From positions 1 through 40,338 of the IMG/VR virus record IMGVR_UViG_3300032278_000030: a DNA stretch of 40,338 bases, one strand, 5' to 3'. This document shows positions 435 to 35,466 of the stretch, piece after piece. Source of the DNA: a virus. The position numbers and the translations under genes are program-made. The notes under the pieces are model-generated. The model saw only the letters and a list, made by a program, of their open reading frames with translations. It did no database searches and had not been told where the DNA came from. Numbering within the stretch: position 1 is the stretch's first letter; every line of letters starts with the position of its first letter.

Positions 435-443
435 CGCTCACTT

Positions 444-490
444 AGGTATCTTGGGGGAGGGCGGTTCCCATCCCGCCCCCCCCCATACCT
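444..490 (+). other. Long G/C-rich inverted repeat between virion genes
   Basis: AGGTAT (444-449) pairs with ATACCT (485-490). Inside it, a G-rich arm (453-464) pairs with a C-rich arm (about 473-484) around the loop TTCCCAT. No T tract follows, so it is not a standard intrinsic terminator. It ends nine bases before the ATG at 499, so it could act as a processing, pausing or translation-control hairpin. It fills the gap between the first two virion genes. Confidence 0.55.
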
Positions 491-498
491 GCGGGGAC

Positions 499-3562: not shown

Positions 3563-3650
3563 GTTCGACAAACTGAGCAAGCGGAACAAGTCGCTGGTTA
3601 TAATCGGCGTGTGCGCTTCGATATTCTTTCTTCTGGAGTTGTTGAAATGA
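3534..3650 (+). CDS. 38-residue single-span membrane protein overlapping the lipoprotein gene
   Basis: This short gene starts with ATG at 3534 in a different frame within the lipoprotein gene's last 29 bases and ends in an ATGA overlap with the next gene. The product has a basic amphipathic N-terminus (MELLKRLKAEFDKLSKRNK) and one transmembrane helix (LVIIGVCASIFFLLELL). It fills what would otherwise be the only gap in a tightly coupled series of small membrane genes. Its size and topology fit a small holin-like or holin-regulating protein, but nothing proves that role. Confidence 0.55.
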   Translation: MELLKRLKAEFDKLSKRNKSLVIIGVCASIFFLLELLK

Positions 3651-3889
3651 ACGTGGATTTCGGGGTCGTCGAGTTGGTCATGATGATCGTCATGGGTCTG
3701 CTGGGATATCTTTGGCGAACGCAAGCCACCGACGTGCGCCAGACGAGCGCCGACCTCAACAAGCTGTCCATCAAGTTCGCGGAGGCGAAGGGAGCGAGTG
3801 AGGCCACCAACAAGACTTTGTTTTCACACATTGAGGAGATAAAGAACGCGGTGGAGAGGATGGAGAACCTTTTGCTTAACAAGAAATGA
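3647..3889 (+). CDS. Small membrane protein, TM helix plus coiled coil
   Basis: Encodes 80 residues from the ATG at 3647, which overlaps the preceding stop as ATGA. Residues about 5-24 are hydrophobic (VVELVMMIVMGLLGYLW), and the rest is a hydrophilic, heptad-like helix ending in EEIKNAVERMENLLLNKK. This N-terminal anchor plus coiled-coil plan is found in holin and inner-membrane spanin-type proteins and in some phage accessory proteins. It shares the plan with the next gene, suggesting a pair that interacts through the coils. Function is inferred. Confidence 0.65.
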   Translation: MNVDFGVVELVMMIVMGLLGYLWRTQATDVRQTSADLNKLSIKFAEAKGASEATNKTLFSHIEEIKNAVERMENLLLNKK

Positions 3890-3890
3890 C

Positions 3891-4220
3891 ATGGTGGAAT
3901 TCGTCAACGAGTTGATTTTGCTGGGAATCGCCTTGGTCATCGGCGGGATAAGCTGGATGCTCAAGAAGGAACATAGTCGCATCGAGGCGCTGGAGGGTGA
4001 CCACGGGAACCTAAACGACAGGTTGTCGCGGGCCATCAACGAGATTGCCAAGAACGACGTGGCGGACAGGGAGTGGCGAAAGCGGGTGGAGGAGAATCAC
4101 CAAGCGTTGCTGAAGGCGGACGAAGACCGCAGGAACGACACACGAAAGATTTACGACAAAATAGAAGTGACGCAGGAGAAAATACAGCGTCTGGCTGAAC
4201 TAATTGCGGGGAAAAAATAA
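3891..4220 (+). CDS. Membrane-anchored coiled-coil protein, i-spanin/holin-like
   Basis: Encodes 109 residues. An N-terminal transmembrane segment (LILLGIALVIGGISWML) is followed by about 80 residues of charged helix with heptad spacing (HSRIEALEGDHGNLNDRL through VTQEKIQRLAELIAGKK). The start is one base after the preceding stop, and the stop overlaps the next ATG as TAATG. Type II membrane topology with a long coil is the inner-membrane spanin layout, and a lipoprotein is encoded close by. No catalytic residues are seen, so this is not an endolysin. Confidence 0.65.
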   Translation: MVEFVNELILLGIALVIGGISWMLKKEHSRIEALEGDHGNLNDRLSRAINEIAKNDVADREWRKRVEENHQALLKADEDRRNDTRKIYDKIEVTQEKIQRLAELIAGKK

Positions 4221-16663: not shown

Positions 16664-17626
16664 TCATGTCATCAGTCGGATGAACTCGTAGGCGACTTGG
16701 GGCACGATTGCGTTCCCAAGTCCCTTGAGTCTGTCCACCCGATTGGGTATCCCATGAGCCACTCGACCCACGTCGGGTTCAGGGAGCCACCGACTACTGA
16801 CGGGAGGTCTATCGCTTCCCCCTTGTACGCCCGCCCCGATGCTCCCTTCCAATCCCGAGTGCAGGGAGTCGGAAGCAACTTCACTTGATCCGCCGTCCTT
16901 GGGTCGGGGATTTTTCCCGCTAACGTCAGGGTCGCGATTCTCCTTAAAATTCTCCCCCCTTTGTCCACTTTTGCCAAGGACTTGAAGTTGGTTCCCCCAT
17001 CTACATGCTCCATCGCCGTCGGCGTGGGCCACATCTTCGGATGGACTACCTGTTCCCTTAGGTTGGCGCATCCTCCTTTGTTTGCCTTGTCTGACCTTTC
17101 TTCCGGTTTCCTCACATCCGTCCTGTGATCCATCGTGTTCGGCGTTGCCCACAATCCAGATGCGGTCTCTTCTGTGCGGGGCATCGACGGCGCAAGCCGG
17201 TACAATGAACGTTTGGACGGCGTATCCCATGCCTTCCAAGTCAGAAAGCACGTTGTCGATGCCCATCGTGACGAGACCAGCAACGTTCTCGCCAAGTACC
17301 CAAGTGGGTCTTGCCTCGTCAATAACGCGAGCCATTTGCGGCCAGAGCGCGCGGTCATCCTCCTCGCCTCGTCGCTTCCCGGCTGTACTGAATGGTTGGC
17401 AAGGAAATCCACCTGTGAGGAGGGTGACTCCCTCATGGTCTCTTCCGTCGAGGTCGTGGACGTCGTCGGTGATGGGGACGTCTGGCCAGTGTCGTTCGAG
17501 GACTCCTTGGCAGAATCTGTCCTGCTCGCAGAAGGCGATTGTTCTGTATCCTGCCCATCTGGCGGCGAGGGCAAATCCCCCAATGCCGCTAAAAAGGTCG
17601 AGGTGCGTTCCTGTTTCTTCATTCAC
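16664..17626 (-). CDS. dcm: DNA (cytosine-5) methyltransferase
   Basis: Encodes 320 residues from GTG at 17626, six bases after AAGGAG. It transfers a methyl group from S-adenosylmethionine to C5 of cytosine in a recognition sequence. Visible motifs are I (DLFSGIGGF, residues 10-18), IV with the catalytic Cys (GGFPCQPFS, Cys76), VI (ENV, 113-115), VIII (RRDRIWIV) and X (GLGNAIVPQVAYEF). The recognition region (residues about 160-285) is hydrophilic and low in complexity, with three related segments (GNAEHDG, VAHADGDG, VASDSLHSG). The whole gene is also open in the +1 frame. It could protect phage DNA from host restriction. It is the last gene of the - strand operon. Confidence 0.93.
   Translation of the reverse strand: MNEETGTHLDLFSGIGGFALAARWAGYRTIAFCEQDRFCQGVLERHWPDVPITDDVHDLDGRDHEGVTLLTGGFPCQPFSTAGKRRGEEDDRALWPQMARVIDEARPTWVLGENVAGLVTMGIDNVLSDLEGMGYAVQTFIVPACAVDAPHRRDRIWIVGNAEHDGSQDGCEETGRKVRQGKQRRMRQPKGTGSPSEDVAHADGDGACRWGNQLQVLGKSGQRGENFKENRDPDVSGKNPRPKDGGSSEVASDSLHSGLEGSIGAGVQGGSDRPPVSSRWLPEPDVGRVAHGIPNRVDRLKGLGNAIVPQVAYEFIRLMT
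16672..17622 (-). CDS. Overprinted protein inside the methyltransferase gene
   Basis: A 316-residue frame lies wholly inside dcm, shifted by one base. ATG at 17622 is ten bases after the same AAGGAG. It has a Ser/Thr/Pro-rich N-terminus, then RSGRKWLALLTRQDPLGYL, CFLTWKAWDTPSKRSLYRL and SLNPTWVEWLMGYPIGWTD. Three repeats, LWATPNTMDH, MWPTPTAMEH and LLPTPCTRDW, are encoded by the same bases as the three related segments of the methyltransferase recognition region. From memory, LLPTP and NPxWVEWLMGxPxGWTD segments recur in phage proteins annotated beside or within cytosine methyltransferases. That suggests genuine dual coding, but it needs a codon-level test. Function unknown. Confidence 0.5.
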   Translation of the reverse strand: MKKQERTSTFLAALGDLPSPPDGQDTEQSPSASRTDSAKESSNDTGQTSPSPTTSTTSTEETMRESPSSQVDFLANHSVQPGSDEARRMTARSGRKWLALLTRQDPLGYLARTLLVSSRWASTTCFLTWKAWDTPSKRSLYRLAPSMPRTEETASGLWATPNTMDHRTDVRKPEERSDKANKGGCANLREQVVHPKMWPTPTAMEHVDGGTNFKSLAKVDKGGRILRRIATLTLAGKIPDPRTADQVKLLPTPCTRDWKGASGRAYKGEAIDLPSVVGGSLNPTWVEWLMGYPIGWTDSRDLGTQSCPKSPTSSSD

Positions 17627-17703
17627 TTGTGTCTCCTTGTGTTGTTGTTATCATATCCCTGCCTTAAAAGCCTCGCAATCCACGACATAGGGTCAACCCC
17701 TCG

Positions 17704-19035
17704 TCAGTCAGCGAAAGGACTCCTATAGGGCTTCTTGACCTCCGAGTGTGGCTTGTTGAAGGTCTGCGTGTTCCTGTCGAATCTCAAGCTGCTCACTCCG
17801 GTGTGACCGAACCTGTTCTTCGAGAGGATGAGGGTGATCCTCTCCTTGTCCTCCTTGTCGGGTTGATGGAGGAACACCACGGCGTCCGCGTCCTGCTCAA
17901 GCGCCCCGCTCTCACGGAGGTCGGACAATCTGGGTTCCCGCGAAGTCTGCTCCACCGACCTGTTCAACTGGGACAGCAGGAGCACGGGGCACTTCAGTTC
18001 CTCCGCCAACAGCTTGCCGTCCTTGCTGATGCCAGCAATCTGCTGCTCCCTTGGAATCCTTGGGTCGGAGGGAGAAACCAGACCGCAGTAGTCTATCACC
18101 ACAAGGCCCAACTCCTTCACCCTTCTCGCCTTCGCCCTGCACAACGCCATCGAGACGCCCCCATTGTCGTCCAGCTTCAGCTTGCCCGAACGCAACGTCT
18201 TCCTCGCTTCCTCCACCGCCACGTGCTGGAGGTTGTCGATGCTTCCGCTCTCGATCAGGTGGACGGGCACTCCGCTGACGTGGGAGATCAGCCGCTTGCC
18301 CAAGCTCCCCGCGTTCATCTCAAGACTCTGGAAGTACACGCTCGTGTCCACCATCATGCCAGCCGCTATCTGGAGGGCAAGGGCAGTCTTCCCCGTGGAC
18401 GGACGAGCGGCCAGCACGGTGAGGGTGCCGTTCCGCAGCCCTCCCCCCAGCATCCTGTCCAAGTCGCCAAGTCCCGTGGGGCGTCCGTTCCTCCCGCCTT
18501 GTTCGCGGGCTTCGAGGAAGTCAGCCCAAGCCGCCTCCTCCACTGCGGCGCCGTCCTTCAGTCCGTTCGACTGGGCGTTCAACCCGAACAGCGTCTTGTC
18601 GGCTCCCTCCACCAAGTCGCCCGAAGGCTCCCTCATCGCCACCCTGTCCAGCAGGGACAACGCGAGGGACTGCACCCTCCTCAGACGCTCCACCTCTCTG
18701 GCGGCTCCGGCGAACTGGTGGACGTGACCCGCCGTGTCGCATGCGTTGAACACGTTCCACAAGTTGTCCTTGCCCAAGTCCTCCACGCGCCGTCCCAGAC
18801 GCTGGAGAACCGACACCTCGTCCACTTCCTCCTTCGCCTTGTCCAGCGCCACCATCGCCGCCCAAATCTCCGCATGAAGCGGATCGAGGAAGGTCTTCGC
18901 GGTCACTCCCTCGTCGAGAGCAACCGCTATGACGTCCCCCTTGACCAAGCAACTCAGCAGTCCGCGCTCTGCGTCGTGATCCTTCGGCCTGTCTGGTGGA
19001 GCTATCACTTCTCGTCCCCGTAGAAGTGGTGGCAC
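17704..19035 (-). CDS. dnaB: DnaB-type replicative DNA helicase
   Basis: Encodes 443 residues. The protein unwinds DNA at the fork as a hexamer using ATP. An N-terminal DnaB domain (ERGLLSCLVKGD onward, residues about 20-130) is followed by a RecA-type motor with Walker A (AARPSTGKTAL, about 209-219), Walker B (LVVIDYCGL, about 311-319), LLLSQLNRSVE, and a final motif LRESGALEQDADAVVFLHQ. No primase domain is fused. GTG at 19035 has AAGGA nine bases upstream and is used here. GTG at 19008, overlapping the upstream stop as GTGA, is a good alternative. It would work with the initiator-like protein at 19309-19902. Confidence 0.93.
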   Translation of the reverse strand: MPPLLRGREVIAPPDRPKDHDAERGLLSCLVKGDVIAVALDEGVTAKTFLDPLHAEIWAAMVALDKAKEEVDEVSVLQRLGRRVEDLGKDNLWNVFNACDTAGHVHQFAGAAREVERLRRVQSLALSLLDRVAMREPSGDLVEGADKTLFGLNAQSNGLKDGAAVEEAAWADFLEAREQGGRNGRPTGLGDLDRMLGGGLRNGTLTVLAARPSTGKTALALQIAAGMMVDTSVYFQSLEMNAGSLGKRLISHVSGVPVHLIESGSIDNLQHVAVEEARKTLRSGKLKLDDNGGVSMALCRAKARRVKELGLVVIDYCGLVSPSDPRIPREQQIAGISKDGKLLAEELKCPVLLLSQLNRSVEQTSREPRLSDLRESGALEQDADAVVFLHQPDKEDKERITLILSKNRFGHTGVSSLRFDRNTQTFNKPHSEVKKPYRSPFAD

Positions 19036-19280
19036 GTGACGTCGTCCTTGTGGCGGTCACCCACCTTGGATTGAGCGGCCCGCACCAATGCATACCTGTA
19101 GTCTTCGGAGGCGCGGTTGATGTCCAAGAAGACGTGAATCGCCATTTCCGCGACGTCCATCTCGTAGTCGAAAAACGAAGCATGGAATTTCTTACACGCC
19201 TCGCCGCACTTGATCAGCACCTCATGCAGATTGTTCGCATCCTTTGTTATCTCTGTCTTGTTCTTCTTTCTGTCCTTCAT
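19005..19280 (-). CDS. Small helical protein upstream of DnaB
   Basis: Encodes 91 residues with a clear site (AAGGA, seven bases before ATG). It starts very basic (MKDRKKNKTEITKDANN), continues as amphipathic helices (NLHEVLIKCGEACKKFHASF, AEMAIHVFLDINRASEDYRYA) and ends in DDVTCHHFYGDEK. Its 3' end overlaps the helicase start, implying coupled translation. No known fold is recognised. Its position between an initiator-like gene and dnaB could make it a loader accessory, but that is only context. Confidence 0.7.
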   Translation of the reverse strand: MKDRKKNKTEITKDANNLHEVLIKCGEACKKFHASFFDYEMDVAEMAIHVFLDINRASEDYRYALVRAAQSKVGDRHKDDVTCHHFYGDEK

Positions 19281-19308
19281 CTCTCTATCCTTTCCTTTGT
19301 GTTTTCGT

Positions 19309-19902
19309 TTAGGTCAAGTCCACGTCGTAGTGGTTCTTGTTCAGCAAATCCTCCGGCGAGACAACCTCGTCATGGAAGCCGAATGCGTCGAGCCAGTTGC
19401 TCACGTGCTTGACGTAGCGTATGCCCTCGTATCCCTCTCCTTTAGAAGCCTTGAAGTATGCGACGTAGCGATCAGCTACGTCAGCGGGCGTCAGCCCGCT
19501 CTTGAGCATTTCATTGCCTACCTTCCTTGAGTTCCATTTCTTCTTCGCCTCTTCCCTTGTTCCTCTCTTGAACTGCTTTGGAATGGAATACCAGAAATCA
19601 GAGAAGGTGTCTGTCTTTGCATTTTCTTCTTTGCTCTCTTCATTGCTGGTAGCACTTACTCTTCGGGTACTAGTCGTACCCTCATCGTAAGTACTACGCT
19701 TATTGTTTAATTGTACACTAGCGAAGCTAGTCGCGCCTACGCGAGGCTCGTCGCTCCAGACACCCATGCTCTTGGCCCCTTTGACAACCAGTCCAATTAT
19801 GGCTACTTGGCGTGAGCAGGAGGTTTCCGTCATCCATTGCTCAACGGCTTGATTCACTTGGGCTGTGAACTTCACGCTGACTGATTTTCTTTCATCCCTC
19901 AT
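19309..19902 (-). CDS. Putative replication initiator/helicase loader with N-terminal ribbon-helix-helix
   Basis: Encodes 197 residues. ATG at 19902 overlaps the upstream gene and follows GAGGAGG by nine bases; earlier in-frame ATGs at 19962 and 19923 are less likely. Residues about 5-45 (SVSVKFTAQVNQAVEQWM, then SRQVAIIGLVVKGAKSMG) look like a ribbon-helix-helix DNA-binding unit. A Ser/Thr/Glu linker follows. The C-terminal block (DFWYSIPKQFKRGTREEAKK through YVKHVSNWLDAF) matches the FW...P...A..W...Y...WL pattern of phage replication initiators and DnaD/DnaT-like loaders. It probably recruits DnaB. The RHH call is less certain than the C-terminal one. Confidence 0.6.
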   Translation of the reverse strand: MRDERKSVSVKFTAQVNQAVEQWMTETSCSRQVAIIGLVVKGAKSMGVWSDEPRVGATSFASVQLNNKRSTYDEGTTSTRRVSATSNEESKEENAKTDTFSDFWYSIPKQFKRGTREEAKKKWNSRKVGNEMLKSGLTPADVADRYVAYFKASKGEGYEGIRYVKHVSNWLDAFGFHDEVVSPEDLLNKNHYDVDLT

Positions 19903-20089
19903 GGCTGATTTCCTCCTCTTCATCGTCCGCCGCAGCGGCGTTGTTGAGCAGGGCGGCTTCACGCTCCAGACGATCCCGTCTCAAGTCGTCCATAATCTTC
20001 TTCTCCTGATCTCTCACGAAATCCGATTCCCACGGTTTGTCTCTGAGGTACCAGAGGTCAAGTATCATATCTTCCACGTCTTCACTCAT
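19892..20089 (-). CDS. Small acidic early protein
   Basis: Encodes 65 residues. Two in-frame ATGs exist; the second (20089) sits eight bases after AAGGAG, whereas the first is only two bases away, so 20089 is chosen. The sequence is helical and charged, with a C-terminal acidic tail (NNAAAADDEEEEISHEG). It overlaps the downstream initiator-like gene by 11 bases, and its tail-coding bases supply that gene's GAGGAGG site. No family recognised. Confidence 0.65.
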   Translation of the reverse strand: MSEDVEDMILDLWYLRDKPWESDFVRDQEKKIMDDLRRDRLEREAALLNNAAAADDEEEEISHEG

Positions 20090-20112
20090 TGTCATCTCTC
20101 CTTTTTTTATGG

Positions 20113-20214
20113 TTATTGGGACAGTCTCTCAACTATCCAAAAGCATATGCCTGTCCATGAGTCGAGTTGCCACAGCAACAGGCACATGGCGAACAGCAGA
20201 CGCCATTCATTCAT
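20113..20214 (-). CDS. 33-residue hydrophobic protein
   Basis: ATG at 20214 overlaps the upstream stop as ATGA, the same coupling used by neighbouring early genes. The product starts MNEWRLLFAMCLLLWQLDSW and continues TGICFWIVERLSQ, giving one or two short hydrophobic segments likely to enter the membrane. AAAGGA lies a few bases upstream. It fills the gap between two accepted genes. A chance frame cannot be excluded at this length. Confidence 0.4.
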   Translation of the reverse strand: MNEWRLLFAMCLLLWQLDSWTGICFWIVERLSQ

Positions 20215-20411
20215 CTTCCTTTCTGTTTTTCGTATTCCCGGATATCTTGTCGAAGTGCGTACAAGTCACCCAGATCGACTTCCCTGCACTTGCAGGCAGG
20301 TTCGTCCTCGTCGGCCCACTCCTCCCCGCACTTGGGGCATCTCACCCATCCGCGCGGGGCTTTGTCGGCCCAGAGATCGCCCTCGTCGTGAGCGGTTGGT
20401 TCTTCAGTCAT
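20211..20411 (-). CDS. Small zinc-ribbon-like protein
   Basis: Encodes 66 residues from ATG at 20411, six bases after AAGGAG. The centre carries CPKCGEEW and, 12 residues after the second Cys, CKC, a plausible Cys4 zinc site of ribbon type. A helix (LGDLYALRQDIREYEKQKG) follows. The gene overlaps its upstream neighbour by eight bases. Small zinc proteins are common in phage early operons, acting as nucleic-acid or protein binders. The target is unknown. Confidence 0.65.
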   Translation of the reverse strand: MTEEPTAHDEGDLWADKAPRGWVRCPKCGEEWADEDEPACKCREVDLGDLYALRQDIREYEKQKGR

Positions 20412-20622
20412 CCTTCTCTCCTTTCCTTAGTTTGAACTCGATGTGTTTGCAGGCTTCCTTGTAGGCTCCCTCCAAGTCCCTGAAGTACCCTTGGTATCCG
20501 TCACCCTTGACTATCCACTTGTCCAACTTGTGGTCAAGGGTGCACGTCGCCTTCCTACCTGTCGGCACGTGGGTCAGCGTTATGCTGTATCCCTTGCTGG
20601 TCACTTTGATATCGTCTTCCAT
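20404..20622 (-). CDS. Small early protein, unknown role
   Basis: Encodes 72 residues. It begins ten bases downstream of the preceding stop, with only a weak GAGG site, and overlaps the zinc-ribbon gene by eight bases. Two predicted beta hairpins (YSITLTHVPTGRKATCTL, DKWIVKGDGYQGYF) lead into a helix (LEGAYKEACKHIEFKLRKG). This beta-beta-alpha layout resembles small double-stranded-RNA- or protein-binding folds, but no signature residues confirm it. Confidence 0.65.
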   Translation of the reverse strand: MEDDIKVTSKGYSITLTHVPTGRKATCTLDHKLDKWIVKGDGYQGYFRDLEGAYKEACKHIEFKLRKGEKDD

Positions 20623-20631
20623 GCCGATGCC

Positions 20632-21138
20632 TCATCCAGCGAGCGTCTTGATCGTCTTGACCACCATCTCGATGGACGGGAGCTTCCGTTTGCGGAGAAG
20701 CGCCTTGCCCGTCATCCCGATGCAAGCCGCCTTGTTCTCCCAATGGTCGAGGCCAGCTACTTGGGTTTCGGTGAGTCCCTCTCTAGGCACCTTGGCGAGC
20801 ACGGCGGAGCGCATGAGGGAGTCGTTCGCCTTGCGGTGTTCCTTTCCTCTGACGAGGTCAGCCATCTCCTCCCGCAGGAGGAGTCGGAAGCCCACCTGTC
20901 CCATGCCCCGTTCAGTGGGGAAGAATCCCTCCTTCTGGATCAGGCTCTTGAGAGCGAACCACTCGTTGAGGAACGCCCATTCGGCTCGCCTGTTCTCCTC
21001 GATGCCCAGCAGTTCGCAGACTTCCAGCCACTTGAACTGGGCGCCGTACTCCAGCCGATTCTCCAGTTGCTCGAAGGCGTGTTTGTGAGGTGGCCACGTC
21101 GAGGTGTCCCTTCCGTTGCTTGAGTTGTCCTTGCTCAT
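20632..21138 (-). CDS. Early protein of 168 residues, unknown family
   Basis: ATG at 21138 overlaps the preceding stop (ATGA) and follows GAGGTG. The longer upstream frame reads through the duplicated gene in the wrong frame and is rejected. The product is helical with Trp/Leu-rich segments (AQFKWLEVCELLGIEENRRAEW, GFRLLLREEMADLVRGK) and a basic C-terminus (KALLRKRKLPSIEMVVKTIK). There is no membrane or enzyme motif. It lies between the duplicated pair and the small replication-side genes. It could bind DNA, judging by charge, but that is a guess. Confidence 0.65.
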   Translation of the reverse strand: MSKDNSSNGRDTSTWPPHKHAFEQLENRLEYGAQFKWLEVCELLGIEENRRAEWAFLNEWFALKSLIQKEGFFPTERGMGQVGFRLLLREEMADLVRGKEHRKANDSLMRSAVLAKVPREGLTETQVAGLDHWENKAACIGMTGKALLRKRKLPSIEMVVKTIKTLAG

Positions 21139-21365
21139 GATTTCACCTCTTCCATTGATTCCACGACGAAGCGTCCGAAGTTGCCAGACACCTTCGGGGC
21201 GCCGGGACGCCAGTCTCCCAAGCCGACGCGCTGTCCAGCAACCTCCGCTATCCGCCTGAAGGTGTCTTTGTCTATCAGGTCGGGATCGAGCTTGATTGGT
21301 ATTTTGCATTTCCAGCCAATTGGAATAAGAGGTCTGGTGCGCGAAACTCTGGTTGGATTGCTCAT
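21135..21365 (-). CDS. Truncated paralogue of the next gene
   Basis: Encodes 76 residues from ATG at 21365, overlapping the preceding stop as TGATG. Almost the whole product aligns with the C-terminal 70 residues of the 201-residue protein at 21365-21970. Shared blocks are RTRPLI, LDPD(L/M)ID(K/R)DTF, IA(E/D)(V/I)AG and GDWRPGAPKV followed by GNFGRFVVES. It is a tandem partial duplication that has kept an open frame, a start and coupling while diverging by many conservative changes. It may form a heteromer with, or regulate, the full-length copy. No function is known for the shared domain. Confidence 0.7.
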   Translation of the reverse strand: MSNPTRVSRTRPLIPIGWKCKIPIKLDPDLIDKDTFRRIAEVAGQRVGLGDWRPGAPKVSGNFGRFVVESMEEVKS

Positions 21366-21970
21366 CAGTTGACCTCCTTGATTGATTCCACCACGAAGCG
21401 TCCGAAGTTGCCCGGCACCTTTGGGGCGCCGGGTCGCCAATCGCCCATGCCGATGCGGTGACCAGCGATATCAGCTATCTGCTCGAAGGTGTCCCTGTCT
21501 ATCATGTCGGGGTCGAGTTCGATGGGCACATCCAACGTCCAGCCAGTCTCGATGAGCGGTCTGGTGCGCATGACCTTTACGCCGTTGACTCCGACCGCCT
21601 TTCTCAAGCGGGCCTTCGGATCATTCTTCAGTTTCTTGAGGTTCTTGTGATTCGGGAATATGAGAGGGCACCCGTATTCGGTGTCGATCATTATGCCGAT
21701 TGACTCACGACCCATGCGTATCTTCTTGCAGGCGTCGAGGAACATACGCTGGAGATTGTCCACGGGCATGTAGACGCCCATCTCGTCCGACCAATAGAGG
21801 CCAGCCTCGAACTCAATCTCCGACATCAGTTCATGGTCTTCCTCCGTCTTCTTTCTCTTGGAGGAAACCGACTTGAGCTTCTTGGCCCAAGGGTCGAGCG
21901 GATCAGCCGTTCTTCCGTTGTGCATTATGATGGGACGTATGCCCCGTAGGTTCAGGTTTAGTTTTATCAT
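21365..21970 (-). CDS. Conserved phage protein with RTRP/GDWRP motifs, unknown function
   Basis: Encodes 201 residues, with AAGGA nine bases before the ATG. Blocks that I recall from many phage early regions are visible: IIMHNGRTADPLDPWAKKLK, KRKKTEEDHELMSEIEFE, a middle segment MPVDNLQRMFLDACKKI, and the C-terminal VMRTRPLIETGW plus GDWRPGAPKVPGNFGRF. Nothing identifies a catalytic site. The hairpin array lies immediately upstream, so its mRNA probably begins within or runs through that array. The C-terminal domain is duplicated in the next gene. Confidence 0.75.
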   Translation of the reverse strand: MIKLNLNLRGIRPIIMHNGRTADPLDPWAKKLKSVSSKRKKTEEDHELMSEIEFEAGLYWSDEMGVYMPVDNLQRMFLDACKKIRMGRESIGIMIDTEYGCPLIFPNHKNLKKLKNDPKARLRKAVGVNGVKVMRTRPLIETGWTLDVPIELDPDMIDRDTFEQIADIAGHRIGMGDWRPGAPKVPGNFGRFVVESIKEVN

Positions 21971-22010
21971 CTCTTCATCCTTTCTTATCTTTGTTTTCGT
22001 TTTAGTTCAG

Positions 22011-22655
22011 GTAAACTGTCGGGGCTTTCGACCCGATGATGTAGCCTCGTCGTGCCCAGCCCTGCCCTGCCTGTCTCCGCCGAGCCTTGCCATGCCTCTG
22101 AAAACTGTCGCCCCCGAAGGGGCGATGATTTGGGTTCGCCTCGCCCCGCCTCGCCGGGCCGTTCCTAGCCTTGCCGCTCCGGGCCGATCCCCTGAAAACT
22201 GTCGGGGAATTGCACCCCGATGATGTAGCCTGTCCGCGCCTTGCCTCTCCGCGCCATGCCAAGTCCAGCCGCGCCTCACCTTGCCCCTGTAAACTGTTGG
22301 GGAGTTGCACCCCAATGATGTAGCCTTTCCACTCCGCGCCATGCCGTGCCTTGCCTGTGCGATCCACGCCTTGCCAATGAAACTGTCGGGGAATTGCACC
22401 CCGATGATTTTGCCTTTCCGCGCCCCTCCAAGCCTGTCCGCTCCACGCCATGCCACACCGTGCCAGTCCAATCCACGCCCATGTAAACTGTCGGGGAGTT
22501 GCACCCCGATGATTTTGCCTTTCCGCGCCAATGCGGGCCATGCCACACCGTGCCAGTTCAATCCACGCCCATGTAAAACTGTCGGGACTTGCGTCCCGAT
22601 GTGTAGCCGATCCTTTCCACGCCACGCCATGCCATGCCGTGCCCGTCCTCGCCAT
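22011..22655 (-). repeat. Array of seven covarying hairpins joined by GGCNN pentamer tracts
   Basis: Seven units start near 22013, 22101, 22195, 22291, 22380, 22484 and 22574 (88-104 bases apart). On the - strand each reads CATC or similar, a hairpin, then ACAGTTT. The usual stem is TCGGGG/CCCCGA with a seven-base loop. The unit at 22291 has TTGGGG/CCCCAA, the one at 22101 TCGCCCC/GGGGCGA around TTCG, and the one at 22574 TCGGGAC/GTCCCGA around GCAA, so arms change together. Between hairpins the DNA is built from five-base steps of GGCNN type. The units fall in different reading frames, so the long frames here are not genes. Possible roles are a structured leader RNA, a replication or recombination signal, or a protein-binding array. 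Confidence 0.85.
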
Positions 22656-22665
22656 TTGAAATTGA

Positions 22666-23103
22666 TCATGCGTTCTCTCCCGTGGTTATTATGGTTATGC
22701 CCACTTCGTCGCCCCACCATTTCCTCAAGGTGAGATCGTAGACCTGCTGATCTCCTCCAAGGAACCAATTGGCCTCTGCCATGCTGTCTAAAATCATCTT
22801 TGAAAGATTGTCTAAATCTGGTTTCGTCGTCATGGGAATGATGCCCAATCTCCTTCTCTTCTTGGCTTCGCTCTTGCGCCAAGGGAAGACCAGCACGACC
22901 TCCACCTTGGTTGCTCCAGTGAAAGGTTTGGGCGGGGAGTGGGAGCACAACAGGTTCAACAGGTTCTTCTTCGCCTTCGCTCCCGCGCTCCCCGCCGCTT
23001 TCCCGACGAAAGGGGTACCATCCCTTCGCCTGAGAATCATCGCGCTGCCTTGGTGCGTTGCCTTGGGTGGAACGCATGGCAGAAAAACAGTGTGCTTGTT
23101 CAT
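22666..23103 (-). CDS. rusA: RusA-family Holliday junction resolvase
   Basis: Encodes 145 residues, starting in an ATGA overlap with the upstream nuclease-like gene. RusA dimers cut four-way DNA junctions made during recombination and replication. The signature is clear: TTKPDLDNLSKMILDSM (Asp96, Asp98, Lys102) and GGDQQVYDLTLRKWW (Asp118), the acidic and Lys residues of the metal site. The N-terminus has the expected early strand (VFLPCVPPKAT), and length is near that of known members (about 120-140). It would resolve branched DNA before packaging. The hairpin array lies just downstream of its stop. Confidence 0.88.
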   Translation of the reverse strand: MNKHTVFLPCVPPKATHQGSAMILRRRDGTPFVGKAAGSAGAKAKKNLLNLLCSHSPPKPFTGATKVEVVLVFPWRKSEAKKRRRLGIIPMTTKPDLDNLSKMILDSMAEANWFLGGDQQVYDLTLRKWWGDEVGITIITTGENA

Positions 23104-23573
23104 GGTATTACCTTTGCAGTGAGAAGGGGAAGGAAGGCGTTCAATCGCTCCACTTCTCCCCCGTTTATAGTTCGTTTGGTTATTGTCTTACGGCGGTCGA
23201 ACTCGAACGCCCAATGCCCAGTCGAGTCGGTGATCGTCAGGACGAGCAGGAGATCGTCCGGTATGAGGTAGAGCAGACCCACGAACGGAACTCGCAGCAA
23301 CCTGCTCGCCATCCTGCCAGCGTTCACCTTGTCAGCGGAGATCAGCCACTCGTTCCTGAAGTTAGCCATCAAGTGCAAGTGGGTGAGGTTCCTCGTCTTG
23401 ACCTCCGCCACCGCGCTCAACTCTCCTTGCCTCATGAACACGCCGTCCACTTCGGCTGGCCTGTGCTTGGGCGTCTCGATGAAGCGTTGGTCAGGGTGAG
23501 CCAGCGAGAATTTCTCAATTGCCCTGCGCTCGTACTCCAGCGAGGACTTTCCTCTTTTCGTCATCACGTCCAT
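23100..23573 (-). CDS. PD-(D/E)XK nuclease-like protein
   Basis: Encodes 157 residues, with AAGGA six bases before the ATG. Residues 43-59 give Asp43 (AEVDGVF), then Glu57 and Lys59 (AVAEVKTRN), the D...ExK core of PD-(D/E)XK nucleases, preceded by a basic helix (SLEYERRAIEKFS) carrying a Glu as expected. A later helix and strands (ISADKVNAGRMASRLLRVPF, LLYLIPDDLLLVLTI) complete a minimal fold. It is coupled to rusA, so a role in trimming or cutting recombination intermediates is plausible. Without a structural comparison the exact subfamily is open. Confidence 0.65.
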   Translation of the reverse strand: MDVMTKRGKSSLEYERRAIEKFSLAHPDQRFIETPKHRPAEVDGVFMRQGELSAVAEVKTRNLTHLHLMANFRNEWLISADKVNAGRMASRLLRVPFVGLLYLIPDDLLLVLTITDSTGHWAFEFDRRKTITKRTINGGEVERLNAFLPLLTAKVIP

Positions 23574-23644
23574 TGTTCATCCTTTCTCTTTTGAACGGCG
23601 GGAAGCCTTTGTTTCAAGAAGCACCAAAGATAGAGCTTTGTCAC
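23564..23644 (-). CDS. Possible 26-residue micro-ORF
   Basis: GTG at 23644 follows GGGGAG by five bases and opens a 26-residue frame (MTKLYLWCFLKQRLPAVQKR...). Its stop lies 11 bases inside the next gene. It fills the gap of about 110 bases between the RecE-like and nuclease-like genes in a genome that leaves few gaps. At this length chance is a serious alternative, and no homologue is known to me. Confidence 0.22.
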   Translation of the reverse strand: MTKLYLWCFLKQRLPAVQKRKDEQWT

Positions 23645-23681
23645 GGGTTCTCCCCGCGCACCATTCGGCTCCCGCCTGAAT

Positions 23682-24653
23682 TCATTTGACCATCTTGTTC
23701 ATCGACTTGACCGACAGGAACCTTCGTCCCCCGAACCTCCTCGACTCGACTTCCCCGTTCATCCAGTTGTAGAGGGTTGTCCTCGACACGTTGAACCGCT
23801 GGCCCGCCTGCTTGACGGAGAGCCAGTTCCCGTTTGGCATGGGTTCCCTGTCGGGCATCGCCCAAGGCGGCACCGTCACTTCCGTCACGTCTGCGTCGTA
23901 GCCTTTCCAGACGTCGGTCTCCCTTGCCTTGGAGTAAGCCTTGAGCGCGTCCGTCACCATGCTCTCCGCTTCCGCCACGTCGGACGGGTTGATCGAGTAG
24001 GCGGCGGCTGCGAACGGGGCGGTCTTCTCCACACAGAGGAAGATGAATCGGTTGACCTTCATCCCCGTTTCCTCCAGCGCTTTCCGGTAGAACCACTCCT
24101 GAACGAACAGCTTGTTGTTCGCCACCGTCTTGCGGAACCCGTTCACGGATGCGTCGGTGGTTGTCTTGAGGTCAATCACGTCCACTCCCTCCGACGAGAA
24201 TGAAACGAGGTCTGGCCTCGCCTTGCACCCGACGCCCTCCACCTCGAAGAACAGACTGCCCTCCGTCACGAAGTCGCCCTTGAAGAACTCAGCCGTGACG
24301 GGATGGTCAAGAGCGGACTCGACCACACGAAGGACTTTGTCGAAATCCTCCGCGTTCATCCACTCAATGTCCAACGGATGGGTGTTCATCCATTCCTTGT
24401 AGTAGTTGGTTCTTGGCCCCTTGCCGTCGATCTCCAGCGGCTTCGGAGCGTACCTGTCCTCGAAAACATTCGGCTCCAGATAACCGCAGTGCGCGGCTGA
24501 CCCGAAGACGAAGTGAGGCGGTCTGACCGCAGGCTCCTCCCTCCCTCCGTAGTGCAGTGGAGAGATCATGAGTCTCCTCACGTCGCTGGAGCCAAGCTCC
24601 TCTCTGGAATGGTACTCCTCGTTCGACATCGTGATGAACTTTTCCTCGCTCAT
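23682..24653 (-). CDS. RecE-like exonuclease fused to a C-terminal helix-turn-helix
   Basis: Encodes 323 residues, starting in ATGA overlap with the SSB-like gene. The first 270 residues match the RecE C-terminal/PD-(D/E)XK exonuclease family: SNEEYHSREELGSSDVRRL, FVFGSAAHCGYLEP, CKARPDLVSF (Asp148), then VDVIDLKTTTDAS (Asp161, Lys163) and a motif around QEWFYRKAL. Such enzymes resect duplex ends for annealing-based recombination. Residues about 276-323 (NWLSVKQAGQRFNVSRTTLY, then RRFGGRRFLSVKSM) form an excisionase/MerR-like helix-turn-helix with a wing, which is not part of that family's usual domain plan. It may guide the nuclease to specific DNA or serve in autoregulation. Confidence 0.82.
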   Translation of the reverse strand: MSEEKFITMSNEEYHSREELGSSDVRRLMISPLHYGGREEPAVRPPHFVFGSAAHCGYLEPNVFEDRYAPKPLEIDGKGPRTNYYKEWMNTHPLDIEWMNAEDFDKVLRVVESALDHPVTAEFFKGDFVTEGSLFFEVEGVGCKARPDLVSFSSEGVDVIDLKTTTDASVNGFRKTVANNKLFVQEWFYRKALEETGMKVNRFIFLCVEKTAPFAAAAYSINPSDVAEAESMVTDALKAYSKARETDVWKGYDADVTEVTVPPWAMPDREPMPNGNWLSVKQAGQRFNVSRTTLYNWMNGEVESRRFGGRRFLSVKSMNKMVK

Positions 24654-25210
24654 GGCGTTGTCCCGAAGGGGTCGTCGTCGTTGGTCTGAGGAGCCATCGC
24701 GGCGAACGGATCATCGCCAGTGTACAAGGCTTCCAAGTTGATCAACGGAAGCTTCTCCCTTATTTCGGAGAGAGCGGCCTCGCTCAACGTGGTCGGCGGC
24801 TTGGGAACGGTGGTGTAGGTGGTCAACAAGCCCTCGCCGTTGCGTTGTACGCAGACGTCGTACTGCTTGGGGTCACCCCAGTCGGAGTCGTTCACGAACT
24901 CCAGCAACTGCTCTCTGATGGAGGCTTGCGGAATCTCCCATATCTGGATACACCCCAGATCATGGTTCCAAACGGGGCAGGCCCAGATATGCTTGGGCGT
25001 TTCCTCGTAGGTTCCGTTGGCTGGCTTGTCCTTTGTGCGAACAGGGGCAGCCTTCTCCTCTCCGTCCACTTCCTTGCGCGTCCAGCCAAGCCAACCTGTT
25101 ATGGCTGACCCGATTATCCGAAGGTTGTTCTTTCCCTGCACCAACTTGGTGTAGTTTCCTCCGCTTGCGGCGGGAGGTTTGTAGTCGTCTGGTAGAAACG
25201 TCATGATCAT
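24650..25210 (-). CDS. Putative single-stranded DNA-binding protein
   Basis: Encodes 186 residues. ATG at 25210 overlaps the upstream stop (ATGA); a second Met two codons later is possible. The N-terminal block (LPDDYKPPAASGGNYTKLVQ, NNLRIIGSAITGWLGWT) and HIWACPVWNHDLGCIQIWEI recall phage proteins I know next to RecE/RecT genes. The C-terminus ends in an acidic tip, TNDDDPFGTTP, close to the DDDIPF tail by which bacterial SSB recruits partners. Together with the adjacent exonuclease this supports an ssDNA-binding role in recombination and replication. The OB fold itself is inferred, not seen. Confidence 0.6.
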   Translation of the reverse strand: MIMTFLPDDYKPPAASGGNYTKLVQGKNNLRIIGSAITGWLGWTRKEVDGEEKAAPVRTKDKPANGTYEETPKHIWACPVWNHDLGCIQIWEIPQASIREQLLEFVNDSDWGDPKQYDVCVQRNGEGLLTTYTTVPKPPTTLSEAALSEIREKLPLINLEALYTGDDPFAAMAPQTNDDDPFGTTP

Positions 25211-25419
25211 TCTTTCTCTTTTAGGTTTATTTGTTCGTTGACGGCGGCGCAGAAGCACTGCCATTCATTGGCCGTGAACACGGGTGACGGAACAATCGAA
25301 GTCGCCAAGGTCAGGTCGCCGTCGTTGTCCAACCGCATGGTGCATTCAGCCCACGGCGTGATCCACTTGACGGAGCCAGCTTCGGCTTCCAGCCTTGGTT
25401 TCTTCGATTCGTCTCTCAT
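25207..25419 (-). CDS. Small early protein, unknown role
   Basis: Encodes 70 residues, coupled to the SSB-like gene by ATGA. No good ribosome-binding site precedes ATG at 25419, and in-frame extension is blocked by a stop seven codons upstream. The sequence is a likely beta sheet (VKWITPWAECTMRLDNDGDLTL) ending in a helix (TANEWQCFCAAVNEQINLKE). Regions of this kind occur in many phage early operons. Family unknown. Confidence 0.6.
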   Translation of the reverse strand: MRDESKKPRLEAEAGSVKWITPWAECTMRLDNDGDLTLATSIVPSPVFTANEWQCFCAAVNEQINLKEKE

Positions 25420-25490
25420 GTTCGAGGACAGGATGCCTCACTTGTACAATCCTGTCAACACTATTCTTTACACTTCCTTTCTTATTTCGG

Positions 25491-25766
25491 TCAACACGAG
25501 GCCCAACCAGTGAACCTGTATTTCCCCGTTTCTGTTTCCGCGCCCCAGACTACCCCCCATTTATCGGTGGCATCCTCAGCTTTTTCGTCCCAGTTTTCCG
25601 GGTCTTTCTTGTATTCGTTCGTCTTGTCAATGAACCCATCCGTCGTGGAGATGGTTCCATTGTAGGCGTTGTGTCCGTACTCATGTTCGGCATCATCGAC
25701 TGCATTGCGGTAAGCGTCCGCCATCGTTTTGCCCGTACTTGTGGTTGTTATGTTATGAGCGCCCAT
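25491..25766 (-). CDS. Conserved small phage protein (GKT...GHNAYNGTI type)
   Basis: Encodes 91 residues. ATG at 25766 is preceded by GGAGG at nine bases. The N-terminal half MGAHNITTTSTGKTMADAYR, then AVDDAEHEYGHNAYNGTIST, is a pattern I recall from small proteins of many phages and plasmids: a beta strand, a helix with AEHEYG, then a GTI turn. The remainder is acidic with Trp residues (KWGVVWGAETETG). No activity is known for this group. Confidence 0.65.
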   Translation of the reverse strand: MGAHNITTTSTGKTMADAYRNAVDDAEHEYGHNAYNGTISTTDGFIDKTNEYKKDPENWDEKAEDATDKWGVVWGAETETGKYRFTGWASC

Positions 25767-25798
25767 TTTACACTTCCTCCTCTTCCTTGGTTTCAGTT

Positions 25799-26590
25799 TC
25801 AGTTGACTTCAGTTATCACTTGTTCGTTCCCAAACCAATCGAGGTAACGGTTCTCGAAGTCCAGCAGCTTGTCCATCACCTTGATCAGTCCCTCCGTTCT
25901 GTTTTGCATAGTGGCGAAGTTCCACTTCTTGGCCACTTCCGTGAACGCATTCTGCAATCCCCAAGCGGTGCCGTGTTCGAACTGTTCATGGCTTGGGTTC
26001 CTGTATTCATTGTCCCAAGCGGGGAGCGAGGAGCCGGGGATGCCTTGCGGGCTTTTTAGCCTCATTACTTCCTTTGTGATATGATCAGCCACCTCGTCGG
26101 TGATGCGGGTGTCCTTGTATATCTCCCTGCGTCCCTCTTGTCTCTTGAACTCGTCGCCCAAGGTCTGGACTGCGGAGGTCATGAGTCTTGGCAGGTCGAA
26201 CATTATGTTCTTGGTGTGCTTGCGTCCCACTATTATCTGGGCGGTGAAGACCAGATTGTCGCAGACGAAGACGTGATCTCCCGCCCCCAGTTGGGCGAGG
26301 AAGTGCATGGAGCCTGAATTTCTCAGACCCACGACACGACCAGCGTCGTCATACCCGTTGCTCAAGGTGAGCAAGCCGAACATGTTGTCGGTTTTCTCCT
26401 GCTGAATAAGGCTGTATTCCTCAGTCTCTATGTGGTAGCCGCCGCCACGCAGGGTGTCCTTCGCCAGTTCCACGAAGACATCATGTCTTATTGGGTAGTG
26501 CGTTGGAGTGTAAGGGATGGGATCAGCCAATGCGCTGAGTCCATCGATTGATATGCGTTCTGCTCCGCAGTGATTTAGTAACGTACTCAT
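25799..26590 (-). CDS. DUF932-like phage/plasmid protein
   Basis: Encodes 263 residues. The motif GLRNSGSMHFLAQLGAGDHV, then FVCDNLVFTA, and later RKHTKNIMFDLPRLM, corresponds to the GLRNS...VFVCDN...H pattern of the DUF932 group found in phages and plasmids. Family function is unproven; members often lie in early or anti-defence regions. The C-terminal half is helical (HITKEVMRLKSPQGIP, WGLQNAFTEVAKKWNFATM). The leader upstream contains ATGATAACAAC, shared with two other genes of this operon. Confidence 0.65.
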   Translation of the reverse strand: MSTLLNHCGAERISIDGLSALADPIPYTPTHYPIRHDVFVELAKDTLRGGGYHIETEEYSLIQQEKTDNMFGLLTLSNGYDDAGRVVGLRNSGSMHFLAQLGAGDHVFVCDNLVFTAQIIVGRKHTKNIMFDLPRLMTSAVQTLGDEFKRQEGRREIYKDTRITDEVADHITKEVMRLKSPQGIPGSSLPAWDNEYRNPSHEQFEHGTAWGLQNAFTEVAKKWNFATMQNRTEGLIKVMDKLLDFENRYLDWFGNEQVITEVN

Positions 26591-32784: not shown

Positions 32785-33243
32785 ATGAGTGAAGCGGTGG
32801 AGATACGGATGGGTTTATTGAGGCGAGGTGTGAGTCACGAGGTATTTGCGGAGCGATGTGGGATGGGTGTGGTGTTGTTGAAGGAAATGCTGCGAGGAGG
32901 AGAGGTGAGTGATGGGGTACGAGGAGAGTATGCGTCGTTATTGGTAGAGAGTGGAGAGGAAGAGGGGAATCCGTTGGTTGAGGTAATCGCGGAAGAGGAG
33001 GAAGAGGAGTTTGCGGATGAGCATGGAGAAGAGGGGGACAATAAGGGTTGTGTGTTTGGACGAGCGGTGAGGAACGACGTGTTGCAGTTGGTGGTGTTTC
33101 CTGACGGGAGTGAGGGATTGGCTAGGAAGAAGCGTGGATTCAAGCCTAGGGAGGGATTGCCGTGTGAGGTGGAGACATCCGATGAGGAGGGGTTTTTGAA
33201 TTTGGTGGGAAAGTACAGGGACAATGGAGTGAGGTTGGATTGA
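32785..33243 (+). CDS. HTH-type DNA-binding protein upstream of terminase genes
   Basis: Encodes 152 residues from ATG at 32785. A TTG at 32734 is in frame but has no ribosome site. Residues about 5-50 (EIRMGLLRRGVSHEVFAERC, then GMGVVLLKEMLRGGEVSD) fit an Xre-like helix-turn-helix, followed by an acidic linker (EVIAEEEEEEFADEHGEEGD) and a basic and beta C-terminus. It lies first in the + strand late operon and next to the control region. It could be the regulator of the divergent promoters or the DNA-recognition part of packaging. Confidence 0.6.
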   Translation: MSEAVEIRMGLLRRGVSHEVFAERCGMGVVLLKEMLRGGEVSDGVRGEYASLLVESGEEEGNPLVEVIAEEEEEEFADEHGEEGDNKGCVFGRAVRNDVLQLVVFPDGSEGLARKKRGFKPREGLPCEVETSDEEGFLNLVGKYRDNGVRLD

Positions 33244-33722
33244 TGGCAGCGAAGCGCAAGGGTAGGCCGCCGAAGAGGGTGGATGCTGAGAAGTTGATCC
33301 AGCGTGCTGTGCAGGTAGCCTCGAAGGACACGACTCAAGGGAGGAAGGATTTGTCTGAGCGTCCCGATTTGGTGAAGAGTGATGAATTGTCCCAGTCGGT
33401 GAACAGTTTCCTTCATGCGCGGACAGGAATGTTGGCGAAGGAGTTTTACGAGCGAGTGACAGCTAAGCTGGAGGGGTTGGTGGATGATTTGGCTGATGAT
33501 TTGGTGAAGAGGCACAAGGACATGCCTGCGCAGAACTTGGCGTATGCGTTGGGAGTGGTTTTGGACAAGGTGAATGCGTTGAAGGGCAGGCCGCAGGCGT
33601 TCACGGCTAACTTGAGCGTGGGATTTGGGCCGAACAAGCGGAGCAGGGAGGAGATTTTGGCATTTTTGAGTGGAGAGAGCGAGGAGAAGGTGGTCGAGGA
33701 GGTGGAGAAATCGGAGGAATGA
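33243..33722 (+). CDS. Putative terminase small subunit
   Basis: Encodes 159 residues from ATG at 33243 in a TGATG overlap. The N-terminus is basic (MAAKRKGRPPKRVDAEKLIQ), the middle strongly helical (LAKEFYERVTAKLEGLVDDL, PAQNLAYALGVVLDKVNALK), and the end carries KRSREEILAFLSGESEEK, an oligomer- or terminase-contacting tail. Position directly before the large terminase and this layout fit a small subunit that binds DNA and loads the motor. A recognition HTH is not obvious here; it may be supplied by the preceding gene's product. Named by context. Confidence 0.6.
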   Translation: MAAKRKGRPPKRVDAEKLIQRAVQVASKDTTQGRKDLSERPDLVKSDELSQSVNSFLHARTGMLAKEFYERVTAKLEGLVDDLADDLVKRHKDMPAQNLAYALGVVLDKVNALKGRPQAFTANLSVGFGPNKRSREEILAFLSGESEEKVVEEVEKSEE

Positions 33723-33726
33723 CTTT

Positions 33727-33785
33727 GGCGGGGAAGGCATTAGGGGTAGTGCCGCAAGGACGGTGTGATCGACCGTTTCCCCGCC
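33727..33785 (+). other. Three-way-junction element between terminase genes
   Basis: GGCGGGGAA (33727-33735) pairs with TTCCCCGCC (33777-33785). Between the arms sit two hairpins, GGCAT/GTGCC (33736-33740 with 33749-33753) and ACGGT/ACCGT (33760-33764 with 33772-33776), separated by GCAAGG. The whole 59-base spacer between the two genes is thus base-paired, seven bases before the ATG at 33793, which lacks a ribosome site. It may be a pac-type recognition site, a packaging RNA or a translation switch. Confidence 0.6.
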
Positions 33786-33792
33786 GTGGGTT

Positions 33793-35466
33793 ATGAAGTA
33801 TGCTGACGAAGTGAGCGTCCAGTTCGGGATACCTTGGTCTTCCGAGCTTGCTTATGAGCGCGGAGCGCTGAAATCGGGTTTGTCGGCTGATGAAGCCAAG
33901 CTGATGCTGGCTAATCAGCCGGAGAAAGCTGAATTTCTGATGGAGTTGCTGGACAATCAGCCGATGCAGGAGGAGATTGACCCGATACAATGGGGATTCA
34001 CCCTGCCGAGTTGGCAACGTGTGATGGACAGGTGGGACAAGGACAAGATACACGTGATATTTGGAGGAAACCGTTCATCCAAAACAACGTTTGCTTCTCG
34101 ATTGCTGGTGCATTTGGCCCAGATGATACCGGAGGCGGAGCTTAGAAGCTTCCACGTGACGGAGGATCGGAGCATAGAGGACACGCAGAAGTTTGTGTGG
34201 GACGCGATACCGAAGCGGTTCAAGGACATGAGGAAGCGTTCTGACACTCATTCGCTTAGTTACACGCACAAGAACGGGTTCACGGACGGGAAGGTGATAT
34301 TTCCGCCAGCGGAGGGACACAAGAGGGGGAGTTATCTGCGGTTCAACAACTATCGGCAGTTCTTGCAGGACAGTCAGATAATAGAGGGGATGACTGCTCA
34401 CTGCATACACTTGGAGGAGGAGTGCCCGGCCCGCTTGTTCGAGACTTTGCTTGCGCGTGTGGCTGATTATCACGGCAGGATCATCATGACCTTCACCACT
34501 TTGCAGGGGTGGACTGACTTGGTGAGCAGTTTGCTGCGTGGGGCGGAGACGGTGGAGAGCAGGTGGAGCGACTATTTGGGGATGGAGTTGCCGATTGAGC
34601 AGGTCAGCGCGAACTGGGAGGGATGCCGGATACATTACTTTTGGTCGGAGGACAATCCGTTCTTTGACTCCAAGGAGTTGAGGAAGGCGTACTCGAAGCA
34701 GCCGCTTGAGGTGAAGCAGGCGCGGTTGTACGGTGTTCCGACCAAGGTGTTCATGAACAAGTTCCCGAAGTTCAATCCCCACTTGAACGTGGTGGCTCAC
34801 GGGGACATTCCGTTCATCAGGGATTCGGAGGAGCGCGTGACGCGGTACATGGTGTGCGATCCTGCTGGGTCGAAGCCTTGGGTGATGATTTGGGTGGCGG
34901 TGGACAGGGACGGCGTGTGGTGGGTGTACAGGGAGTGGCCCGACTCGACGGTCGGGGCATGGGCTTTGCCCCATGCGAACGCGAAGGGGAAACCAGTCGG
35001 CAAAGCTGGGCCGGGACAGCGACCGGTGGGATACGGGTACGAGGACTATGCGGAGTTGATGAGGGACTTGGAGCAGGACGAGGAGATATTCGAGCGATTG
35101 GTTGACCCTCGATTCGGGAAGGCTACGGTGCGGACGGCTCACGGCGAGACGAACATGTGCAACGAGATGATGGAGTACGACGTGTTTCTGCGGCCCGCTC
35201 CCGGCTTGGAGATTGAGCACGGCATCCAGAAGATAAACGATTTGCTTAGTTGGGACGACGTTGAGCCGAGGAGCCATGAGAACAGGCCGAGCCTGTACGT
35301 TTCGGAGCGATGCGACAATTTGATATACGCGATGACTGAGTACAGCGGGAGTTCGAGGGACGAAGCCTGCAAGGACTTCGTGGACGTTCTGAGATACGGG
35401 GCTGTGACGCCTTTGGACTACGTCGCGGAGGGTCAGTTGTCGGTGACTGGGGGAGGAGGCTACTGA
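33793..35466 (+). CDS. terL: Terminase large subunit (packaging ATPase and nuclease)
   Basis: Encodes 557 residues. It pumps DNA into the prohead and cuts concatemers. The ATPase part has Walker A FGGNRSSKTTF (about 90-100) and Walker B CIHLEEECP (about 204-212), and the coupling motif FTTLQGW follows. The RNase-H-like nuclease has MVCDPAGSKP (Asp356), LVDPRFGKAT (Asp438) and DFVDVLRYG (Asp528/Asp531). No other start is possible without crossing a stop, yet ATG at 33793 has no ribosome-binding site and follows a folded spacer. Length is normal for the family. Confidence 0.93.
   Translation: MKYADEVSVQFGIPWSSELAYERGALKSGLSADEAKLMLANQPEKAEFLMELLDNQPMQEEIDPIQWGFTLPSWQRVMDRWDKDKIHVIFGGNRSSKTTFASRLLVHLAQMIPEAELRSFHVTEDRSIEDTQKFVWDAIPKRFKDMRKRSDTHSLSYTHKNGFTDGKVIFPPAEGHKRGSYLRFNNYRQFLQDSQIIEGMTAHCIHLEEECPARLFETLLARVADYHGRIIMTFTTLQGWTDLVSSLLRGAETVESRWSDYLGMELPIEQVSANWEGCRIHYFWSEDNPFFDSKELRKAYSKQPLEVKQARLYGVPTKVFMNKFPKFNPHLNVVAHGDIPFIRDSEERVTRYMVCDPAGSKPWVMIWVAVDRDGVWWVYREWPDSTVGAWALPHANAKGKPVGKAGPGQRPVGYGYEDYAELMRDLEQDEEIFERLVDPRFGKATVRTAHGETNMCNEMMEYDVFLRPAPGLEIEHGIQKINDLLSWDDVEPRSHENRPSLYVSERCDNLIYAMTEYSGSSRDEACKDFVDVLRYGAVTPLDYVAEGQLSVTGGGGY

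Follow-up and report, generated by a model that had tools for sequence, protein, structure and literature searches.

A conserved three-way junction RNA between neighbouring genes of environmental phages and its possible role in coupled translation

What is the tightly folded stretch that separates a presumed small terminase subunit gene (terS) from the large terminase subunit gene (terL) in an environmental phage genome, and what might it do there? The DNA analysed, referred to below as the window, is a 40,338-base virus record from IMG/VR. Its terL is recognizable by homology, and the gene upstream is presumed to be terS by its position. The product of this upstream gene gave no match in Pfam or PHROG, its predicted structure was of too low quality to look for similar folds, and a scan with the single protein sequence found no relative, an alignment-based search returning the known set only. 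An AT-hook-like motif, KRKGRPPKR, lies at the N-terminus of the presumed TerS (window 33243-33300) and is common to several relatives. The locus is laid out as follows, the core alignment being the structure-matched alignment of relatives described further below.

33243-33722, + strand: upstream gene, presumed terS, 159 amino acids; named from position, kept upstream of the element in relatives
33719-33796, + strand: small frame of 25 codons; its ATG overlaps the terS stop (ATGA) and its TGA overlaps the terL start (ATGA)
33724-33726, + strand: U run directly 5' of P1, present in nearly all members
33727-33734, + strand: P1 5' strand, GGCGGGGA (RNAfold, core alignment)
33736-33742, + strand: P2 5' strand, GGCATTA (RNAfold, core alignment)
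33743-33746, + strand: P2 apical loop, GGGG, invariant in 10/10 terminase-linked members
33747-33753, + strand: P2 3' strand, TAGTGCC (RNAfold, core alignment)
33754-33758, + strand: P2-P3 junction strand, GCAAG (RNAfold)
33759-33764, + strand: P3 5' strand, GACGGT (RNAfold, core alignment)
33765-33771, + strand: P3 loop, variable between relatives
33772-33777, + strand: P3 3' strand, ACCGTT (RNAfold, core alignment)
33778-33785, + strand: P1 3' strand, TCCCCGCC (RNAfold, core alignment)
33786-33792, + strand: gap of 7 bases to the terL start, no Shine-Dalgarno
33793-35466, + strand: terL, large terminase, 557 amino acids (PHROG 2 terminase large subunit, E 1.8e-11)

The initial annotation of this DNA had proposed that a three-way junction with two hairpins at 33727-33785 fills the terS/terL spacer, and RNAfold agrees: on the + strand of the window this junction is both the minimum free energy (MFE) and the centroid structure, and it takes 59 of the 70 nt between the stop of the terS candidate and the terL ATG. 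Its energy of -31.4 kcal/mol corresponds to a z of -3.54, with none of 200 shuffles as good, and ranks among roughly the ten lowest when every 60-nt stretch of the 40 kb is considered on both strands. The window's lowest energy over 60 nt (-38.4) occurs elsewhere, on the - strand at 436 (window 430-510), close to where an open frame ends. The outer stem P1 was annotated with nine pairs, of which RNAfold forms eight; the ninth, A33735-T33777, is optional and requires the terminal G-U pair of P3 to be given up. The terL ATG indeed lies seven bases past the structure and lacks a Shine-Dalgarno sequence, which many other genes in the same phage have. A correction is needed to the notion of a spacer, as this region is not simply non-coding but is crossed by the 25-codon frame.

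To see how far the structure is shared, terL relatives were fetched from IMG/VR, the terminase-linked members thus being found through terL rather than through the motif. In nine relatives (L002, L003, L005, L006, L007, L008, L009, L011 and L012), whose terL proteins are 70-88% identical to that of the window, the upstream gene is the same and its stop is directly followed by this junction; it is the MFE fold of the relatives in the members tested, and in L003 the junction energy taken alone is unremarkable (z -0.65). All members are environmental contigs, several of them short. In the core alignment, which was hand-matched to the structure and thus favours pairing, and whose related rows mean that the counts are not independent events, 98.9% of cells are paired and both sides have changed in 10 of the 19 pairs; none of 500 shuffled controls reaches any of the measures, and slid controls are 43-65% paired. 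When the covariation analysis was repeated on 12 members, two of them from outside the terminase setting, compensatory changes were again found. The element is a conserved structured RNA, with compensatory changes exceeding those in both the shuffled and the slid controls. Covariation in related phages was the check that the initial annotation had called for, and the outcome it had named as adverse, the same gene order with an unpaired spacer, was not encountered in the ten phages. Farther away, terL relatives at ~59% identity lack the element and have other genes upstream, and one closer relative (L004, 85% terL identity) has a different gene directly upstream of terL in a view limited to 331 bases before the contig end.

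The strand on which the element acts can be approached from the same sequences. Counted on the + strand, the hand-matched helices have 31 G-U pairs and not one A-C pair; since pairing on this strand guided the choice of helices, the count is supporting rather than proof. With model R1 the + strand reaches 24-78 bits and the - strand 15-23, and a model built from five relatives recovers the window, on which it was not trained, with an E-value of 3.6e-6 in 275 kb, on the + strand only apart from weak mirror matches. G-U pairs on the coding strand with almost no A-C pairs point to a + strand RNA. This bears on the idea that the terminase recognizes the element in packaging, either as DNA (a pac or cos site) or as an RNA resembling the pRNA of phi29, both of which had been put forward in the initial annotation. 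Pac sites are often located at terS in pac phages, and the element does adjoin terS in the window and the nine relatives; covariation with G-U pairs confined to one strand nevertheless fits RNA and not duplex DNA.

Among the ten terminase-linked members, no variation is seen in the P2 loop GGGG with the surrounding UU/UA or in four of the G-C pairs of P1, while P3 varies in sequence, length and loop. With both the P1 core and the P2 loop invariant, two GGGG strands are therefore available to one CCCC strand, and whether they exchange or dock is not readable from the invariant letters. L009 has a T-loop-like loop, which is not common to the others; a tRNA-like reading was dropped, ARAGORN having found none.

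Searches against Rfam 15 gave no match in the window, in a 141-base region (E up to 5) or in six member loci, and the phi29 pRNA family model likewise had no match in these scans. A literature search, conducted largely outside subscription journals, turned up no report of a structured RNA in the spacer from terS to terL. The element resembles pRNA in being a phage RNA with a three-way junction that lies near packaging genes in ten phages. It differs in its length of ~60 nt rather than pRNA size, in its lack of an Rfam match, in its position on the coding strand between cistrons, also away from terminases, and in its occurrence in phages with a terL-type motor; unlike in phi29, terL is paired here with a presumed terS. 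As a covariation-defined motif borne by metagenomes, the element is comparable to the candidate structured RNAs reported from such data (e.g. PMC2864571, PMC8040213), from which it is set apart at the level of Rfam 15 families.

Three further members were obtained from pattern scans of IMG/VR filtered by model and folding, each record holding one copy of the element.

L132, 36 kb record: element 3' of a small membrane/coiled-coil gene and 5' of a cysteine-rich gene
L167, 74 kb record: element 3' of a very small transmembrane gene and 5' of a coiled-coil gene
L201, 72.7 kb record: element 5' of a helicase-like gene

Model R1, untrained on them, recovers L132 with an E-value of 8e-4 and L201 with 8e-5 within their own records, values that overstate significance because the pattern demanded GGGG and CCCC; L167 has a weaker model score and forms the same junction by folding. 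The layout of stop, junction and start lay outside the search pattern and lends independent support. The element is thus preserved in at least a dozen phages, some of which carry it beside quite different genes. The association with the terminase holds in ten phages and fails in these three, where the junction sits beside lysis/structural or helicase genes, and L132 has an unrelated terminase pair of its own, at ~30.6-33.0 kb, without the element. In one terminase-linked relative (L012), moreover, an extra reading frame intervenes between the element and terL. We accordingly regard a role in packaging, be it as a recognition site or as a phi29-like RNA, as very improbable, and neither of these two proposals of the initial annotation is retained.

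The same scans yielded several sequences that we rejected. L045, L046, L048 and L051 are chance matches, and L074, L075, L076, L118, L126, L128, L131 and L136 were judged to be chance or unrelated repeats; they include a cyanobacterial chromosomal contig (L074:2909-2982, - strand) with a similar P1 and P2 hairpin (GGTTA GGGG TAGCC) past a gene end, and a Geomonas chromosome (L076:574-632, - strand) with GGGG...GTTAGGGGTAGC...CCCC just past a gene stop (25.6 bits with model R2), the former judged chance and the latter probably so. Records of phages contained distant terL relatives only, and blastn at E up to 10 found no convincing element in them.

What the members share beyond the fold is a common anatomy: a stop codon is followed by 4-15 nt that include a U run, then by the junction and, after a few more nucleotides, by a start codon without a Shine-Dalgarno sequence, with exceptions downstream of the junction in L012 and L201. 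In 9/10 terminase-linked members the stop lies 4-15 nt before the junction and the start 6-10 nt after it, and most members have U-rich bases after the junction as well. The small frame adds a second regularity: a double overlap (NTGA at the upstream stop, ATGA at terL) is seen in 7/10 terminase-linked members, whose gap lengths of 70, 73, 73, 73, 76, 79 and 238 all equal 1 modulo 3. In L005 and L006 the frame stops one base before the terL ATG, and in L003 it is broken into two; outside the terminase setting it is open across the element in L167 and L201, ending at or near the next start, and L132 has no through-running frame. Measured against a null in which the pairing of P1, P2 and P3 was kept and the remainder shuffled, the frame is open in 8/9 distinct spacers (P 0.006 if these are independent).

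An open frame with overlapping ends in most members, extended to 80 residues in L012, would also be expected of a small protein-coding gene that merely happens to fold. The comparison of L005 and L006 speaks against this: their spacers differ by five nonsynonymous codons and one stop-to-stop change, whereas their terS genes differ by 4 synonymous and 0 nonsynonymous changes and their terL genes by 47 synonymous and 4 nonsynonymous, so that it is the RNA and not the peptide that is kept. The phase of the frame relative to P2, too, is different in the window and L002 from that elsewhere, which alters the peptide but leaves the RNA as it is. The peptide looks unconstrained on these sequence grounds, a mere coding gene is hardly credible, and the frame is suggestive of ribosomes passing through the element. 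In L012 (L012:1197-1440) the small frame runs on past the junction into the 80-residue frame, which is cysteine-rich and terminates at the start of terL; it looks as though a small gene had grown there or been inserted.

Through the small frame, stops and starts that overlap or adjoin join the two cistrons, as is expected of translational coupling. Structured intercistronic mRNA is known from coupled pairs such as E. coli rpmI-rplT and the coat-lysis pair of MS2/fr, and structure at a downstream start that is opened by upstream translation is an established model of coupling (PMC12548453). The present locus shares with such pairs the co-oriented neighbours, the stop-start overlaps, the structure near the downstream start and the weak or absent Shine-Dalgarno sequence (PMC12548453); it differs from them in having a compact three-way junction conserved between unrelated gene pairs of different phages, with a GGGG loop that never varies and ~25 codons of open frame in between. 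By analogy, the element may work like a coupled intercistronic structure. Our leading explanation, in which our confidence stops a little short of even, is that the element acts in cis, within the mRNA between two cistrons, to gate the coupled translation of the cistron that follows it, terL being one client. Of the three readings offered by the initial annotation, the translational switch is hence the best, and its mechanism, in the steps beyond structure and conservation, is what we infer here. The folded junction would make the terL start, which has no Shine-Dalgarno sequence, hard to reach directly; a ribosome ending terS at the overlapping stop would cover the P1 5' strand and open P1, and could then move on through the small frame and reach terL at its overlapping start. 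Such a course would correspond to coupling by RNA unfolding or by re-initiation (PMC12548453). How often it passes might be set by a GGGG/CCCC pairing exchange, by tertiary docking of the loop or by a bound protein, and the likely outcome would be a limited supply of TerL dependent on terS translation. A throttle is likelier than an enhancer, because structure directly after a stop has been reported to reduce coupling (PMC12548453). For the same reason the structure might insulate the two cistrons instead (PMC12548453), which counts against gating, as do the missing through-running frame of L132 and the split frame of L003, the position of the start codon outside the fold in most members, and the invariant loop, for which a simple unfolding model has no need. 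Most likely, the element acts as a switch or throttle for the next protein made from a shared mRNA, and not as a DNA-packaging signal.

Other translational roles were examined and set aside. The GGGG loop is not favoured as a Shine-Dalgarno sequence, its pairing being weak (-6 to -7 kcal/mol in most members) and GGAG never being seen in the ten unbiased members. Readthrough of UGA into the element was discarded, as the terS frame closes soon past its stop in most members, and so was -1 frameshifting, no slippery heptamer being seen.

In phage MS2, the coat-protein operator is a hairpin in the RNA whose loop is conserved and which lies a few bases from the start of a downstream gene. By likeness to it, P2 could be an operator at which a phage protein, e.g. 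the terS product, or one of the host binds and represses the downstream cistron. In favour of such a role, the GGGG loop and its closing pairs show no change at all where P3 and its loop are free to vary, and the presumed TerS carries a basic GRPP stretch. The resemblance extends to the hairpin, the conserved loop and the short distance to a phage gene start, and stops at the three-way junction, the different loop, the dsDNA phage and the absence of a known protein ligand. Binding specific to TerS would, besides, leave L132, L167 and L201 unexplained, their neighbours being unrelated to terS, and we consider an operator rather improbable.

The U-rich flanks raise another alternative, in which a nuclease cut there, or a pause of the polymerase, would give the two cistrons separate mRNA levels. 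U runs right before P1 and U-rich bases after the junction in most members, a strong G-C outer stem and the placement between different gene pairs would all suit such a processing, stability or pausing element. No intrinsic terminator (a G-C stem followed immediately by a U tract) was called in the window, where no U tract follows P1, and the U-rich tail of several relatives is short; a terminator at this point would deprive the head genes further downstream of transcripts, and the linking small frame and the invariant apical loop are left unexplained by this alternative, which is conceivable but on balance unlikely.

Gating of coupled translation can also be stated in a bolder form, which we advance only as a speculation and think unlikely to hold in all its parts: the junction, compact and marked by its invariant GGGG loop, may represent a new class of portable phage RNA, which shifts from one intercistronic site to another, takes the place of the Shine-Dalgarno sequence and passes ribosomes via a small frame whose peptide is irrelevant, with GGGG/CCCC exchange as the switch. 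If gating of coupled translation is right, the element would add a new family, as judged against Rfam 15, to the RNAs of environmental dsDNA phages, in which one RNA module sets relative gene dosage (e.g. TerS to TerL) at several sites of phage genomes, and it would provide a concrete link between RNA structure and coupled translation. A conserved element next to a terminase gene need not be a packaging signal.

Some further observations concern the surroundings of the element and sequences that imitate it. A lipoprotein gene (window 3122-3562) is common to L132, L167 and the window, and the element follows a different gene in each. Genes that flank the element in L132 and L167 have relatives in the window among the lipoprotein, coiled-coil and very small transmembrane genes of the region 3122-4220, where no copy of the element is found. 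GGGGGTA repeats before integrase genes (L095, L156, L157, L204, L214) mimic the search pattern and are not the junction; such repeats, ending in TACCCCC before the integrase start, occur in unrelated phages and prophages (L095:2405-2460, L156, L157, L204, L214 and the L118 repeats) and are probably integrase arm or attachment repeats. Finally, the early module of the window (16672-26590, - strand) includes matches to a DNA methyltransferase, a DnaB-like helicase, an exonuclease VIII-like protein and a single-strand binding protein.
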